A stretch of 64,000 bases of DNA. It comes from Bacillus sp. SKDU12. GTDB lineage: Bacteria > Bacillota > Bacilli > Bacillales > Bacillaceae. The stretch is from positions 496,001 through 560,000 of the forward strand of contig NZ_MSRC01000003.1 of the NCBI RefSeq assembly GCF_010093085.1, written 5' to 3'. The notes beneath the pieces are model-generated. The model saw only the letters and a list, made by a program, of their open reading frames with translations. It did no database searches and was not told the DNA's origin. The position numbers and the translations under genes are program-made. Positions 32,715-38,756 of the stretch are shown here, in pieces (the first letter of the stretch is position 1; each line of letters starts with the position of its first letter).

Positions 32715-34568
32715 TCACCTCGTTGGGTAGCCTGTTAATATAAAGCTACCATCTTCATTTTTCTTTAATACTATTCTAGCATTAGTCATATCTTTAACTT
32801 CGTTTGAACCTTTACGAACTCCTCTACCTATAACTTCAGTTCCTCTATAAGGTAACGGTAATGGATCGCCTATATCACTATTTAACCACTCTTCAATTTC
32901 CTTTTTATGTTTAGTCAATGTTTCATTAGCGACTCTTTCTGCAGTTGGCCTATCTGTGAAGCTAGAAGAGGCACGTATTTTCTTGTTTATCTGCAGCCTC
33001 TTTAATAACTCTTCATCAGTCTTCCCAACGTGTCTTTCAATAAGGTGCCCGCCTTTTGCTTCATGAGCAGCTAACCCTCCACCAGGTGCGAGAGGGGTAC
33101 TATCACCTTGTTTGACATTACCTATACCTATGTTGTTAGAAGTTTCAGATCTTCTGAGAACACTCTCTTTTTTATCTTCCGCAATACTTTTTAGCAACGG
33201 AGTATTTTTCACGTTAATGGTATTCTCAGCATCTTGAAGGATCCCTTCTAATGCAGGAGTATACCGATTTACAGGAGATTTGACAAACTGTTTTACAGAT
33301 TTTCCGCCTTTTTTAATTGTGCCGCTAGTTGCTTTCCCAACTTTAGCAAGATCCTTCGATCCTGTTGAGACAGAGGACTTTCCACCTTTCAATAACAGAA
33401 GACTTCCGCCCAAATAAGTAACATAGTGCAGCCGTGTGTATGCATCCCCGTGAATCATTTTTGTATCCCAATTATCCTTCAATGTGTCAACCATACTTTG
33501 AAAGGCAGCTTGATAGTCGTATTCCAAAACGGTATCCAGCACTTTTTGAGGATCTTTGTTAATATTATCAATTGTCCAACCGATATTCCATCCGAATTGA
33601 ATGGCTCCTTCACCGGTATCTTTGGCAAGATCGTATATACCAACAATCGCACCCTTGGCGCCATCACCTATGATTTGCAACACTTCTTTTCCGTTATCCA
33701 TGAAAGCTTTACGTTGTTCAAGAAATGAAACAAATTCAAGCTGTTCAGGGGTAAGGTTCTCATATCCGACCTTCTTGGCAATGTCTAAGTATTCATCCGG
33801 ATCCGTCACTCCGTCAGCTAGCTTCTTCTTTAAATCTTTGATTTCTCGTTCTTTCGCTTCATCTTTCTTGATCTTCAAATAAGCTTCAGTCTGTTTCTCA
33901 ATATCGCCTTTTTTCTTATGTATGTCACTTTCGCGATACGCCTTGGCGTTGTAGTGAATGGGCGTAGCGTTTTTGCCTTTGCCTGTTGCTTCTTGGAGCT
34001 TTTGGAAATCTGACTTGATGAATTGTTCATTTGGTTCTGACATAGCATATTCTGTCAGTAAATCTTCGTCAAGGTCACCTAGTTTTTCAATTGTTTTTTT
34101 GCGTTTATCATTGGCATCTGCAAGCTCATCCTTGAAGGTTTCTGTTGAAAACAAGTCGAGCGGGAGGATGTCGTCAATATCGCTTAGGATATCTTTCATG
34201 GCTTTTTTCTGTTCAGACATGATGGACTTTGATTTTTTATGGGCGTTAGCCAGTTCATGTTCTAAAAAGGATTCTTCCACGTATGCGTCAGAGAGTCCTT
34301 TGTCCTCGACAGCTCCGGCAATGCTGTTGAAGAATGCGATTTTCATGTCAATGTAGTCGATCCATTGATCAGTGACACCAACATGATCGTGATAGAATGC
34401 TTTAATGTTATTAGCGCCTTTGCCTGAGAATTCGCTGTCGTCCAGTTCAGCGACGCTTTGTAAAGCTTTTCTCAAGTTGACCATTTGCGTCCTTAGTTCT
34501 TTATATTCTTTGGCGCGGTCTGTAGCTTCAGACATAAGTGTTTTAGCTTCAAAGACTTTCATCATCAT
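32715..34568 (-). CDS. LXG polymorphic toxin with CdiA-type RNase A-like C-terminus
   Basis: A 617-residue protein. Residues 1-230 form the helical LXG domain ([20 protein letters not shown]) used for export by the type VII (YukE/YueB) system. The middle has a pre-toxin linker with Gly/hydrophobic segments ([20 protein letters not shown]). Residues about 496-617 are a bacterial CdiA-CT RNase A-like domain: '[20 protein letters not shown]', '[17 protein letters not shown]' and '[19 protein letters not shown]'. Three consecutive ATGs follow AGAGGG; the second or third may be used. No small LXG partner genes are seen upstream. A phage-borne interbacterial weapon of the YokI/YobL type. Confidence 0.9.
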
Positions 34569-36681: not shown

Positions 36682-37794
36682 ATGAGTAAACTTGCTTCTG
36701 AGTATGTTGCTAATATCTTAAATGATTGGTATATGGCTATAAAACAGCAAAACGTGGGGGCTGCCGAAAAATACTTCAAAGAGAGCAGAGCTCTATTTGA
36801 TGAAATGGAAGAAGATCAGGAAGTATTGATGTACTATTCTTTACTTGAAGAGAGACATAAAATGATGCTCCACCAGGATAAAGGAAAAGAATTTCCAAAG
36901 CACTCTTATTTCAGTAAAAAACATAAGAAAGAAATAAGAAAAACAGACAATATGATCGAATATTATTTCTTTTTATTTGAGGCATTATACGAATCGCACA
37001 ATCGTAATTACGGCAATGCAATTAGTCTTTTTAAAATTGCTGAGAAAAAGCTTGCGAATATTCCAGATGAAATTGAAGCGGCTGAATTTTATTCAAAAGT
37101 AGCCTCTCTTTATATGATGCTTGGCCAAAACATCGTGTCTTTAAACTATATTAAGGATGCAATGCACATTTACAAAAGGAATGAGGATTACAAAAAAAAG
37201 CTTGCGACGTCAATGATGGTTGTAGGTCATAACTATACAGAGCTGGGCCAATATGATAAAGCTGAGGATATTTATTTTGAAGCAATACGAATTTCTAAAC
37301 AACTCGAAGACACTTTTTTTGAGGCTATGATTCATCACAATTTAAGTATCACTTATTCAGCTGCTAAAAAATCACAAGATTGCATAAATGCTCTGAAAAA
37401 AGCATTGAGAAATGATGAATGGAAAGAGTCGGTTTATTACATAAACTCCCTGTATATGATCATAAAAGAGTTCTTCATAATGGGACTATCCGATCAAGCT
37501 GTTTATTATTACAAAAAAGCACAGGAAAACTTAAATCAAAAAGAGAATAAAGTGTATGAGGCTAAAATAAACATTATTTATGAGTTATTCCAGAAAACCC
37601 CTGAAGATAGCGTTAATCAGTGTAGGAGCTACATTCATTTCTTATTTGAACAGAATGACGCGGATAGTGTGCACGATCTCGCTTTAATCATTTCGCAATA
37701 TTATGAGGCGAAAGGATATATTCAAGAAGCTCTGGAATTTTCTAATCATGCTATTTTGGCCGAGAGGAAAATGAAGCAGTTGGAGGGAGTCTAA
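36682..37794 (+). CDS. rap: Rap family response-regulator phosphatase / anti-activator
   Basis: A 370-residue protein of the RNPP/Rap family. The N-terminal three-helix bundle (VANILNDWYMAIKQQNVGAA, 'YFKESRALFDEMEEDQEVLMYYSLLEERHK') is followed by a linker and TPR repeats to the C-terminus ('LATSMMVVGHNYTELGQYDKA', 'AMIHHNLSITYSAAKKSQDC', 'YYEAKGYIQEALEFSNHA'). Raps act on Spo0F-P or block ComA and are inhibited by their Phr peptide. The stop overlaps the phr start (TAATG). ComA-like boxes upstream suggest negative feedback on ComA. Confidence 0.95.
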   Translation: MSKLASEYVANILNDWYMAIKQQNVGAAEKYFKESRALFDEMEEDQEVLMYYSLLEERHKMMLHQDKGKEFPKHSYFSKKHKKEIRKTDNMIEYYFFLFEALYESHNRNYGNAISLFKIAEKKLANIPDEIEAAEFYSKVASLYMMLGQNIVSLNYIKDAMHIYKRNEDYKKKLATSMMVVGHNYTELGQYDKAEDIYFEAIRISKQLEDTFFEAMIHHNLSITYSAAKKSQDCINALKKALRNDEWKESVYYINSLYMIIKEFFIMGLSDQAVYYYKKAQENLNQKENKVYEAKINIIYELFQKTPEDSVNQCRSYIHFLFEQNDADSVHDLALIISQYYEAKGYIQEALEFSNHAILAERKMKQLEGV

Positions 37795-37931
37795 TGAAAA
37801 AGTTAATTCTTTGTTTAGCTGCTGTAGGCGTGTTAGCAACGGCTAGTTATGCAGGATCAATTGATACTCATGTAACAGAGAAACCAGTGGGAACTTATAT
37901 GTTATTGGCTGAAAAACCAGTTGGTACCTAA
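37794..37931 (+). CDS. phr: Phr signal-peptide precursor with duplicated signal EKPVGT
   Basis: A 45-residue secreted precursor starting inside the rap stop codon. There is a Sec-type leader (KKLILCLAAVGVLATASYA), then two copies of the same hexapeptide: EKPVGT at 29-34 and EKPVGT at 40-45, the exact C-terminus. Phr signals are usually penta- or hexapeptides at the C-terminus. PhrK of strain 168 is ERPVG, so the active peptide is probably EKPVG or EKPVGT. The imported peptide should inhibit the adjacent Rap. Confidence 0.9.
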   Translation: MKKLILCLAAVGVLATASYAGSIDTHVTEKPVGTYMLLAEKPVGT

Positions 37932-37937
37932 ATAAAA

Positions 37938-37967
37938 AAGGCTCTCTCATACGAGAAGAGCCTTTTT
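37938..37967. terminator. Bidirectional terminator between phr and a convergent micro-ORF
   Basis: AGGCTCTCTC-ATAC-GAGAAGAGCCT with A-runs on the left and TTTTTATT on the right, so it can stop transcription from both strands. Confidence 0.85.
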
Positions 37968-37969
37968 AT

Positions 37970-38062
37970 TCATGCGCCTACTATTATTTCACGACCTAAG
38001 CCCATTCCTACAGGTGGATCGATTTGATGGGTTCCTACCGGTAACTCACGTGTGATCTTCAT
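37970..38062 (-). CDS. Convergent 30-codon ORF with PVGT motif
   Basis: Reads MKITRELPVGTHQIDPPVGM and continues GLGREIIVGA-stop. AGAGGAG lies 8 bases before the ATG. No leader sequence or membrane segment. It faces phr across a shared terminator and contains PVGT, as does the Phr signal, plus a second PVG. The good ribosome site and clean length favour a real micro-protein; too short for a family call. It could be a decoy, an intracellular ligand of Rap, or a coincidence. Confidence 0.5.
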   Translation of the reverse strand: MKITRELPVGTHQIDPPVGMGLGREIIVGA

Positions 38063-38756
38063 TTTATCAACTCCTCTCTATAGATACATTACTTCATTTT
38101 TTTCTAAATCCCTTTTATTTGAACAAATTTTTCAATAATTTATTTGTTGCTTTTCCGGCTGCACGTCAAGCCACTCTTTTTCCTAATGTGCCGTTTTACT
38201 GCATTTACATTTCCAAGAAGCTTGGCCAACTTGTATAGTGCTGATCTTACTTTATTTATATTCAGTGTCATCATTACCTTTATATGTATATCTTTAGATT
38301 ACAATAAAAATCTAAAAATGAATAGATGTGGGCACCCACAAAGACACCCACAAAACACCCACAAATATAATATACTTGATGATTTCTTATTCGAAGAGAA
38401 ATAACAAAACCTTTTTAATTCAACGTTTATCATGCACTATGACATTGAAATATTGCCTAGGTTATAATCCGGACACAAGTTCACCCTTGGGAGCGCGAAC
38501 AATATATGTCTCAATATTAATCTTTCAATCCCTTGGCACTATTGGTGTCAGGGGATTTTTAAATTTTGGTCAAAAGATTAAGAGAACAATACTTTTGGTC
38601 TTTGACCAAAATATGACCAAATTTGAAATGGAGACCTAATTCTACGATTGACGGAACATAATTCTTTAGCGGGCTTTGGTCAAGTTTTGTTTTTGGTGAC
38701 CTAAAAGCTCTGAGAAATAAGAGTAAAGATAAAATCCACAACGGGGAGGCTTATGA
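38063..38756. other. Probable attachment-junction region (prophage right end)
   Basis: No convincing gene. ACACCCACAAA-like units repeat three times at 38333-38367. A dyad CCCTTGGCAC / GTGTCAGGGG lies at 38530-38554. TTTGGTCA and its complement occur about six times between 38564 and 38700 (38564, 38593, 38604 inverted, 38615 inverted, 38675, 38691 imperfect). Short repeated sites around a dyad are what integrase arm and core sites look like. Beyond here the DNA is non-phage, so this is my best estimate of the prophage end. Confidence 0.4.

Follow-up and report, generated by a model that had tools for sequence, protein, structure and literature searches.

The subject of this analysis is a 30-codon open reading frame (ORF), referred to here as the micro-ORF, in a 64,000-nucleotide stretch of Bacillus sp. 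SKDU12 DNA (contig NZ_MSRC01000003.1, positions 496,001 to 560,000; hereafter the window). It starts about 0.45 kb inside the right attachment site of a prophage and converges with a rap-phr pair on the opposite strand; the features of the locus are collected in Table 1. An earlier interpretation of the same DNA, made without database searches (the sequence-only reading), had described the ORF as having a good ribosome site, no export leader and a bidirectional terminator shared with phr. All of these elements are present: the ribosome site is strong, the terminator forms a stable fold on either strand (-18.5 and -21.3 kcal/mol; z of -6.2 and -5.1), and the product, MKITRELPVGTHQIDPPVGMGLGREIIVGA, starts MKITRELPVGT and lacks a hydrophobic stretch.

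Table 1. Features at the micro-ORF locus, in window coordinates
Feature	Position	Strand	Remarks
rap	36682..37794	+	68% identity to Rap105 (PDB 8rte); system separate from the micro-ORF
phr, 45 aa	37794..37931	+	EKPVGT at 37878-37895 and 37911-37928; Phr105 family; system separate from the micro-ORF
Bidirectional terminator common to phr and micro-ORF	37935..37967	.	
Micro-ORF, 30 aa, leaderless	37970..38062	-	MKITR-ELPVGT-HQI-DPPVGM-GLGR-EIIVGA
Unit EIIVGA	37973..37990	-	same sequence as the AimP signal predicted for L109-L112
Unit DPPVGM	38003..38020	-	same sequence as the AimP signal predicted for L070, L134, L137 and L141, among others
Unit ELPVGT	38030..38047	-	
Shine-Dalgarno sequence of micro-ORF, AGAGAGGAGT	38070..38079	-	conserved in relatives
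Relative of a 50-aa basic phage protein	38110..38274	-	reading frame disrupted here (frame shift plus in-frame stop codon)
Right attachment-site copy of 46-bp direct repeat	38515..38560	.	left copy at G000:C21:490669

Conservation and distribution of the micro-ORF

The sequence-only reading had named lack of reading-frame conservation in related prophages as a result that would refute it, and the frame is conserved. The ratio of nonsynonymous to synonymous substitution rates (dN/dS) is 0.10-0.15 for each of the six pairwise comparisons among four sequences (window, phage A9Y, and the Bacillus genomes G032 and G039), a rough estimate given only about 20 synonymous sites per pair; randomly placed substitutions produced as few amino-acid changes in 0-1% of trials. 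The family comprises 28 protein clusters at 90% identity, and its repeated units are gained or lost whole and in frame: the window copy has three, G039 and the group of L028 have four, and short forms without the C-terminal unit have two or three. Among the 17 members with two units plus a tail, the first unit is nearly invariant; the second varies at positions 3 and 4, and the third at positions 3, 4 and 6. Because of the number of clusters, the low dN/dS and the in-frame turnover of whole units, we conclude from these sequence comparisons that the micro-ORF is a real gene.

The micro-ORF is present in three of 44 genomes of the genus (the window's own, G032 and G039), and the same three were recovered among 80 genomes of the family. 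Phage A9Y carries a relative that is 83% identical and unannotated there, and six IMG/VR contigs carry the gene, four of them nearly identical at the locus. Pattern searches of viral loci returned none with the strict full-length pattern and two and four with looser patterns. A wider search of contigs gave 18 loci, of which only L045 is from Bacillus; the other 17 were set aside on the basis of organism alone. No match was found in a search of plasmids. The peptide has no match in Pfam, NCBIfam, PHROG or PADLOC and no sequence relative in the PDB, and AlphaFold2 models it without secondary structure (mean pLDDT of 63), as expected of a flexible chain. Readings of the locus as a ribosomally synthesized and post-translationally modified peptide, an arrest peptide or a structured RNA found no support; six weak Rfam matches all fell under their gathering scores.

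Predicted arbitrium signals in the micro-ORF and a putative intracellular decoy

In arbitrium systems, binding of the AimP peptide inactivates the receptor AimR and favours lysogeny, and added signal lowers prophage reactivation, as described in parts of PMC6458997 and PMC8612742. A search of 21 related genomes with the coding pattern DP[PA][VI]GM yielded 11 matches in eight genomes: two micro-ORFs, eight other frames and a locus in G039, L070. At L070, DPPVGM stands in a 77-aa propeptide with a hydrophobic leader, the start of which lies inside the end of a gene for a 397-aa HTH-TPR receptor. The curated model NF038310 identifies this receptor as AimR (260 bits, cut-off 70), and it resembles AimR chains in the PDB. 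Of 11 carriers and controls searched with this AimR, G039 and the L027 phage contig gave matches. The AimR on the latter (223 bits) is followed by a 45-aa propeptide ending in EIIVGA, the last six residues of the window micro-ORF. This second match arose without any motif search, and the contig itself carries a micro-ORF.

We then surveyed AimR loci more broadly and obtained 66, comprising 27 places in 21 of the 80 family genomes and 39 viral loci. A short ORF with a hydrophobic start was found at the end of AimR in all 28 loci of a first set (the 27 places plus L077, which is the same place as L109) and in all 39 viral loci. The hexapeptides predicted as AimP signals included DPPVGM, EIIVGA, EIRVGA, EIRVGM, EIKVGA, EIKVGG, EVRVGM, DVKVGM, DVRPGM, GMPRGA and SASRGA; DPPVGM and EIIVGA each recur in many loci, and in the propeptides that were read QLA precedes and S[YF]K follows DPPVGM. 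An order-wide search found AimR in 70 of 397 genomes, many of them distant; seven of the 11 loci inspected have a candidate propeptide, with uncertain ends. The leaderless array has an exported counterpart at L087 (G047), where the propeptide that follows an AimR-like gene contains three DPPVG[KL] units.

We compared the micro-ORF family with a hand-compiled reference list of 26 AimP hexapeptides, some of which come from distant receptors and have uncertain ends. Of 34 family sequences (a set that includes duplicates, the A9Y peptide being the same as P0005), 31 contain at least one exact AimP hexapeptide and five contain two: DPPVGM occurs in 25, EIIVGA in five, EIRVGA in three, EIKVGA in two and EIKVGG in one. 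Shuffled sequences gave a mean of 0.0125 of 34 and a maximum of one (2000 rounds), and reversed sequences gave none. Among all 127,996 hexamers of the window in six frames, two match the list, both inside the micro-ORF; in five other stretches, the matches were micro-ORFs, one AimP and one accidental occurrence. That the micro-ORF is untranslated, with its conservation and its matches both accidental, is an idea suggested by its mere 30 codons and its lack of annotation in phage A9Y. With 28 clusters, dN/dS this low and exact matches far above shuffled expectation, we regard it as having hardly any chance of being correct.

A different origin for the same matches would be that the units are relics or captured fragments of aimP, or ligands of another protein, with a function unrelated to arbitrium. 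The codons for DPPVGM in the window equal those of the L134 aimP at 18 of 18 bases, which fits capture, and part of the family has units without a known AimP. Against this, purifying selection is strong across the whole ORF, and variation among units tracks variation among AimPs: the third unit varies, as judged by eye, at the same positions as AimPs of the EI type. We consider this origin very improbable.

The carriers are mostly phages in which no AimR was found. At an E-value of 0.001 the window genome (G000) has no match to AimR; the repressor position of its prophage is occupied by an HTH protein and an IrrE-like protease (a repressor/ImmA region). Phage A9Y likewise has no AimR match and is annotated with the same kind of repressor and ImmA-type region. 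AimR exceeds the cut-off in two of 11 records, lying elsewhere in the genome in G039 and at the other contig end in G085. Conversely, the micro-ORF is present at two (G085 and G468) of the 30 viral AimR loci searched, which are the 39 less L114, L117, L119, L121, L122, L124, L126, L128 and L147. In both, the AimP signal is EIIVGA, and the micro-ORF ends in GCE and has no EIIVGA unit. Similarly, G039, with its DPPVGM-type AimR elsewhere, has DPPVGT where the L028 group has DPPVGM. This suggests that the signal of the carrier, or of a co-resident phage, may be left out of the micro-ORF.

Because the frame is conserved and leaderless, contains two exact AimP hexapeptides that are rare elsewhere in the window, and occurs in a genome with no detectable AimR, our preferred interpretation is that the micro-ORF encodes a leaderless, multi-signal arbitrium mimic: an intracellular decoy that would bind the AimR of rival phages and drive them to lysogeny. 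We put the probability of this at roughly 0.58. The lysogen would translate the micro-ORF, and cell peptidases would trim the chain to hexapeptides; a single cut after GR would suffice for the C-terminal EIIVGA, and an inner unit would need two. The freed hexapeptides would then bind a rival AimR as AimP does, with less aimX and a shift towards lysogeny as the result. The host and its resident prophage would thus be spared by an infecting arbitrium phage, a co-resident arbitrium phage would stay silent, and the third unit, ELPVGT, may be aimed at a receptor yet to be found. Given the action of AimP on AimR, a lysogen making foreign hexapeptides would be expected to bias the corresponding phages to lysogeny, protecting both cell and prophage. 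The same protective benefit has been proposed for the cognate signal in PMC8612738, where, in the part available to us, cross-talk between systems is assumed to be absent and is not excluded.

Several observations weigh against the decoy interpretation. AimR recognizes both ends of the free hexapeptide (PMC6458997, in part), so the chain must be cut and an uncut chain should not fit; the scheme also supposes that AimP propeptides mature to exactly DPPVGM or EIIVGA. ELPVGT, which is the commonest first unit, DPPVGT and DPAIGM have no AimP match among the 66 AimR loci and 30 propeptide clusters; three of the 34 family members lack an exact match, and EIRVGG, a unit of several members, was not found as an AimP in the loci surveyed. 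Single matches can be accidental, as shown by DPPVGM in an unrelated 39-residue frame of G029 and by another entry of the reference list, KPGIGG, which turns up in an unrelated G039 frame. No promoter was identified for the micro-ORF, a sigma-70 scan giving 13 sites versus 14.8 in shuffled sequence. Lastly, the AimRs of G085 and G468 are 96% identical, so the apparent self-exclusion in these two amounts to about one event.

How the chain would be processed separates the decoy from two alternatives that retain arbitrium as the target. In the first, which is serious though we think it unlikely, lysis of the cell by the carrier phage would free the array, which would be trimmed extracellularly and taken up by neighbouring cells as a false public signal. 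Extracellular proteases do trim flanked pheromones in the case of Phr105, according to the portion of PMC11343458 consulted. A leader is unnecessary if the cell lyses, and in A9Y the micro-ORF lies beside the lysis end of the genome; even so, its strand is not that of the lysis genes, the attachment site is adjacent, and extracellular dilution would work against such a signal. An opposite-strand position near the attachment site is commoner for cargo expressed in the lysogen, which counts against release by lysis. In the second alternative the peptide acts as an antagonist or sponge: AimR would be filled by the uncut chain, the AimP response would not follow, and rivals would stay lytic or have their decision scrambled. 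The presence of several pheromone units within one unprocessed chain would suit such a role; however, AimR and Rap105 grip free peptide ends (PMC6458997 and PMC11343458, both in part) and flanked forms of Phr105 bind poorly (PMC11343458), making this improbable.

Returning to the decoy, we can extend it to a more specific proposal, which we hold tentatively and rate at somewhat less than an even chance. The micro-ORF may be a prophage jamming gene, a leaderless poly-pheromone that impersonates the signals of several rivals inside the cell and forces them into lysogeny, its units tuned to local rivals through gain and loss and its carrier's own signal omitted.

The rap-phr pair and the prophage end

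The rap-phr pair that faces the micro-ORF adds a member to the Rap105-Phr105 family already described in PMC11343458. The window Rap is identical to Rap105 at 250 of 370 residues and at 13 of the 17 that contact the peptide, and its best PDB match is the Rap105 entry; it is thus a Rap105 relative with a conserved peptide pocket. As the sequence-only reading stated, the 45-residue Phr contains EKPVGT twice, at residues 29-34 and at the C terminus (40-45). It has a leader and a C-terminal pheromone within one or two changes of ERPVGT, and it scores 43.9 bits against phrog_19669 and 26.5 bits against the PhrK model NF038040, under the cut-off of 35. The duplicated signal has a precedent: Phr105 carries ERPVGT twice, and Felipe-Ruiz et al. 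(2024; PMC11343458, in part) studied this duplication and counted 81 related systems, with identical internal repeats in six and pseudo-repeats in 33. EKPVG is absent from the main text of that paper. The phi105 phr (L003:4198-4347, NC_048631), with ERPVGT twice, is unannotated in its record. A second Rap105-type gene in the window genome (G000:C21:3439-4548, L059) is 72% identical, and its Phr has EKPVGT and ERPVGT; the two systems probably cross-talk.

The sequence-only reading had also treated rap, phr and the micro-ORF as one arrangement, which does not hold beyond a few carriers. rap adjoins the micro-ORF in two of ten genomes or records (the window and G039) and in none of the seven phage or virus records, six of which may be fragments. 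phi105 has rap-phr and no micro-ORF match, and the second Rap105-type locus has none beside it, the window genome having a single micro-ORF. DNA similarity between the window and A9Y begins at 37931, the phr stop codon, which therefore marks a recombination boundary between phr and the micro-ORF. The convergent neighbour of the micro-ORF in A9Y, G032, G039 and L028 is a CPSC protein (assigned by phrog_28199 for the G032 copy and by reading ORF lists for the others), and in G039 this gene sits between phr and the micro-ORF.

These observations bear on the model originally put forward, in which the neighbouring Rap is the target of an unexported PVGT peptide, or there is an interaction between the convergent transcripts. 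ELPVGT is one position away from both EKPVGT and ERPVGT, and phr and the micro-ORF share a terminator in the window. Nevertheless, leucine replaces the basic residue 2, whose partners persist in the window Rap as E187 and D332; in Rap105, Arg2 is held via salt bridges and flanked forms of ERPVGT bind unproductively (PMC11343458, in part). Together with the adjacency of rap in only two of ten carriers and the two Rap105-type systems that lack a micro-ORF, this led us to reject Rap-Phr as the principal partner, and we give the model very little credence. The exact pheromone matches of the micro-ORF, DPPVGM and EIIVGA, are to predicted arbitrium AimP signals and not to Phr. What survives of the original idea is the conserved, leaderless peptide bearing pheromone sequences; the partner suggested by those sequences is arbitrium AimP rather than Rap-Phr.

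The prophage is bounded by the 46-bp direct repeat, the other copy of which lies at the 3' end of a glutamine synthetase gene beside a phage integrase; the two copies therefore delimit a prophage of about 44 kb. A 21-base CACCCACAAA-rich stretch (38345-38365) has a second copy on the left side of the prophage, next to the attachment repeat there, and these stretches are possible recombinase binding sites. In A9Y, G039 and L026 the gene for the 50-aa basic protein is intact and immediately precedes the micro-ORF; in G032, L028 and L027 it is not found upstream of the micro-ORF. Its family has 18 IMG/VR loci; Bacillus phage PM1 also carries a relative, and a Listeria phage a partial one. The window also encodes an LXG protein (32715-34568, minus strand) whose C-terminal part is an RNase A-type toxin domain (PF04740, PF18431), and N-terminal halves similar to that of this protein are encoded close to the micro-ORF in L027 and L028.

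Comparison with known systems

Arbitrium systems are treated as private codes. A 2026 review describes the codes as limiting cross-talk (PMC13389391), and PMC8612738 leaves open whether the arbitrium of one phage acts on another, both as far as the parts consulted go. A compact gene holding several codes would allow such cross-action to be tested directly, by means of synthetic peptides and laboratory phages. If the decoy interpretation is true, the micro-ORF would be a dedicated counter-communication device between viruses in one cell and would account for the survival of phages lacking arbitrium alongside those that possess it. The hexapeptides shared by micro-ORF and AimP were not found in open-licence PMC full text; for arbitrium mimicry or cross-talk and for orphan or cytoplasmic AimP, no such array appears among the titles and abstract starts of the matches listed there.

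A functional parallel is provided by Phaeobacter inhibens, in which the signal of one prophage drives a co-resident prophage to lysogeny; the chemistry there is LuxI/LuxR, and each prophage has its own working signalling in place of a mimic of foreign peptides (PMC13345283, in part). The Rap105-Phr105 family is represented at the locus itself by the window rap-phr, with its 68% identity to Rap105 and two copies of EKPVGT. The micro-ORF falls outside that family, as it has no leader, has leucine in place of a basic residue at position 2 of ELPVGT and lies in another neighbourhood in most relatives. With AimP propeptides, the micro-ORF family shares the identical hexapeptides DPPVGM, EIIVGA, EIRVGA, EIKVGA and EIKVGG. 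It differs from them in having no export leader, which the AimP neighbours of AimR possess (by the filter used to find them), and no aimR directly upstream or elsewhere beside it, and in packing two to four different signals into one short chain.
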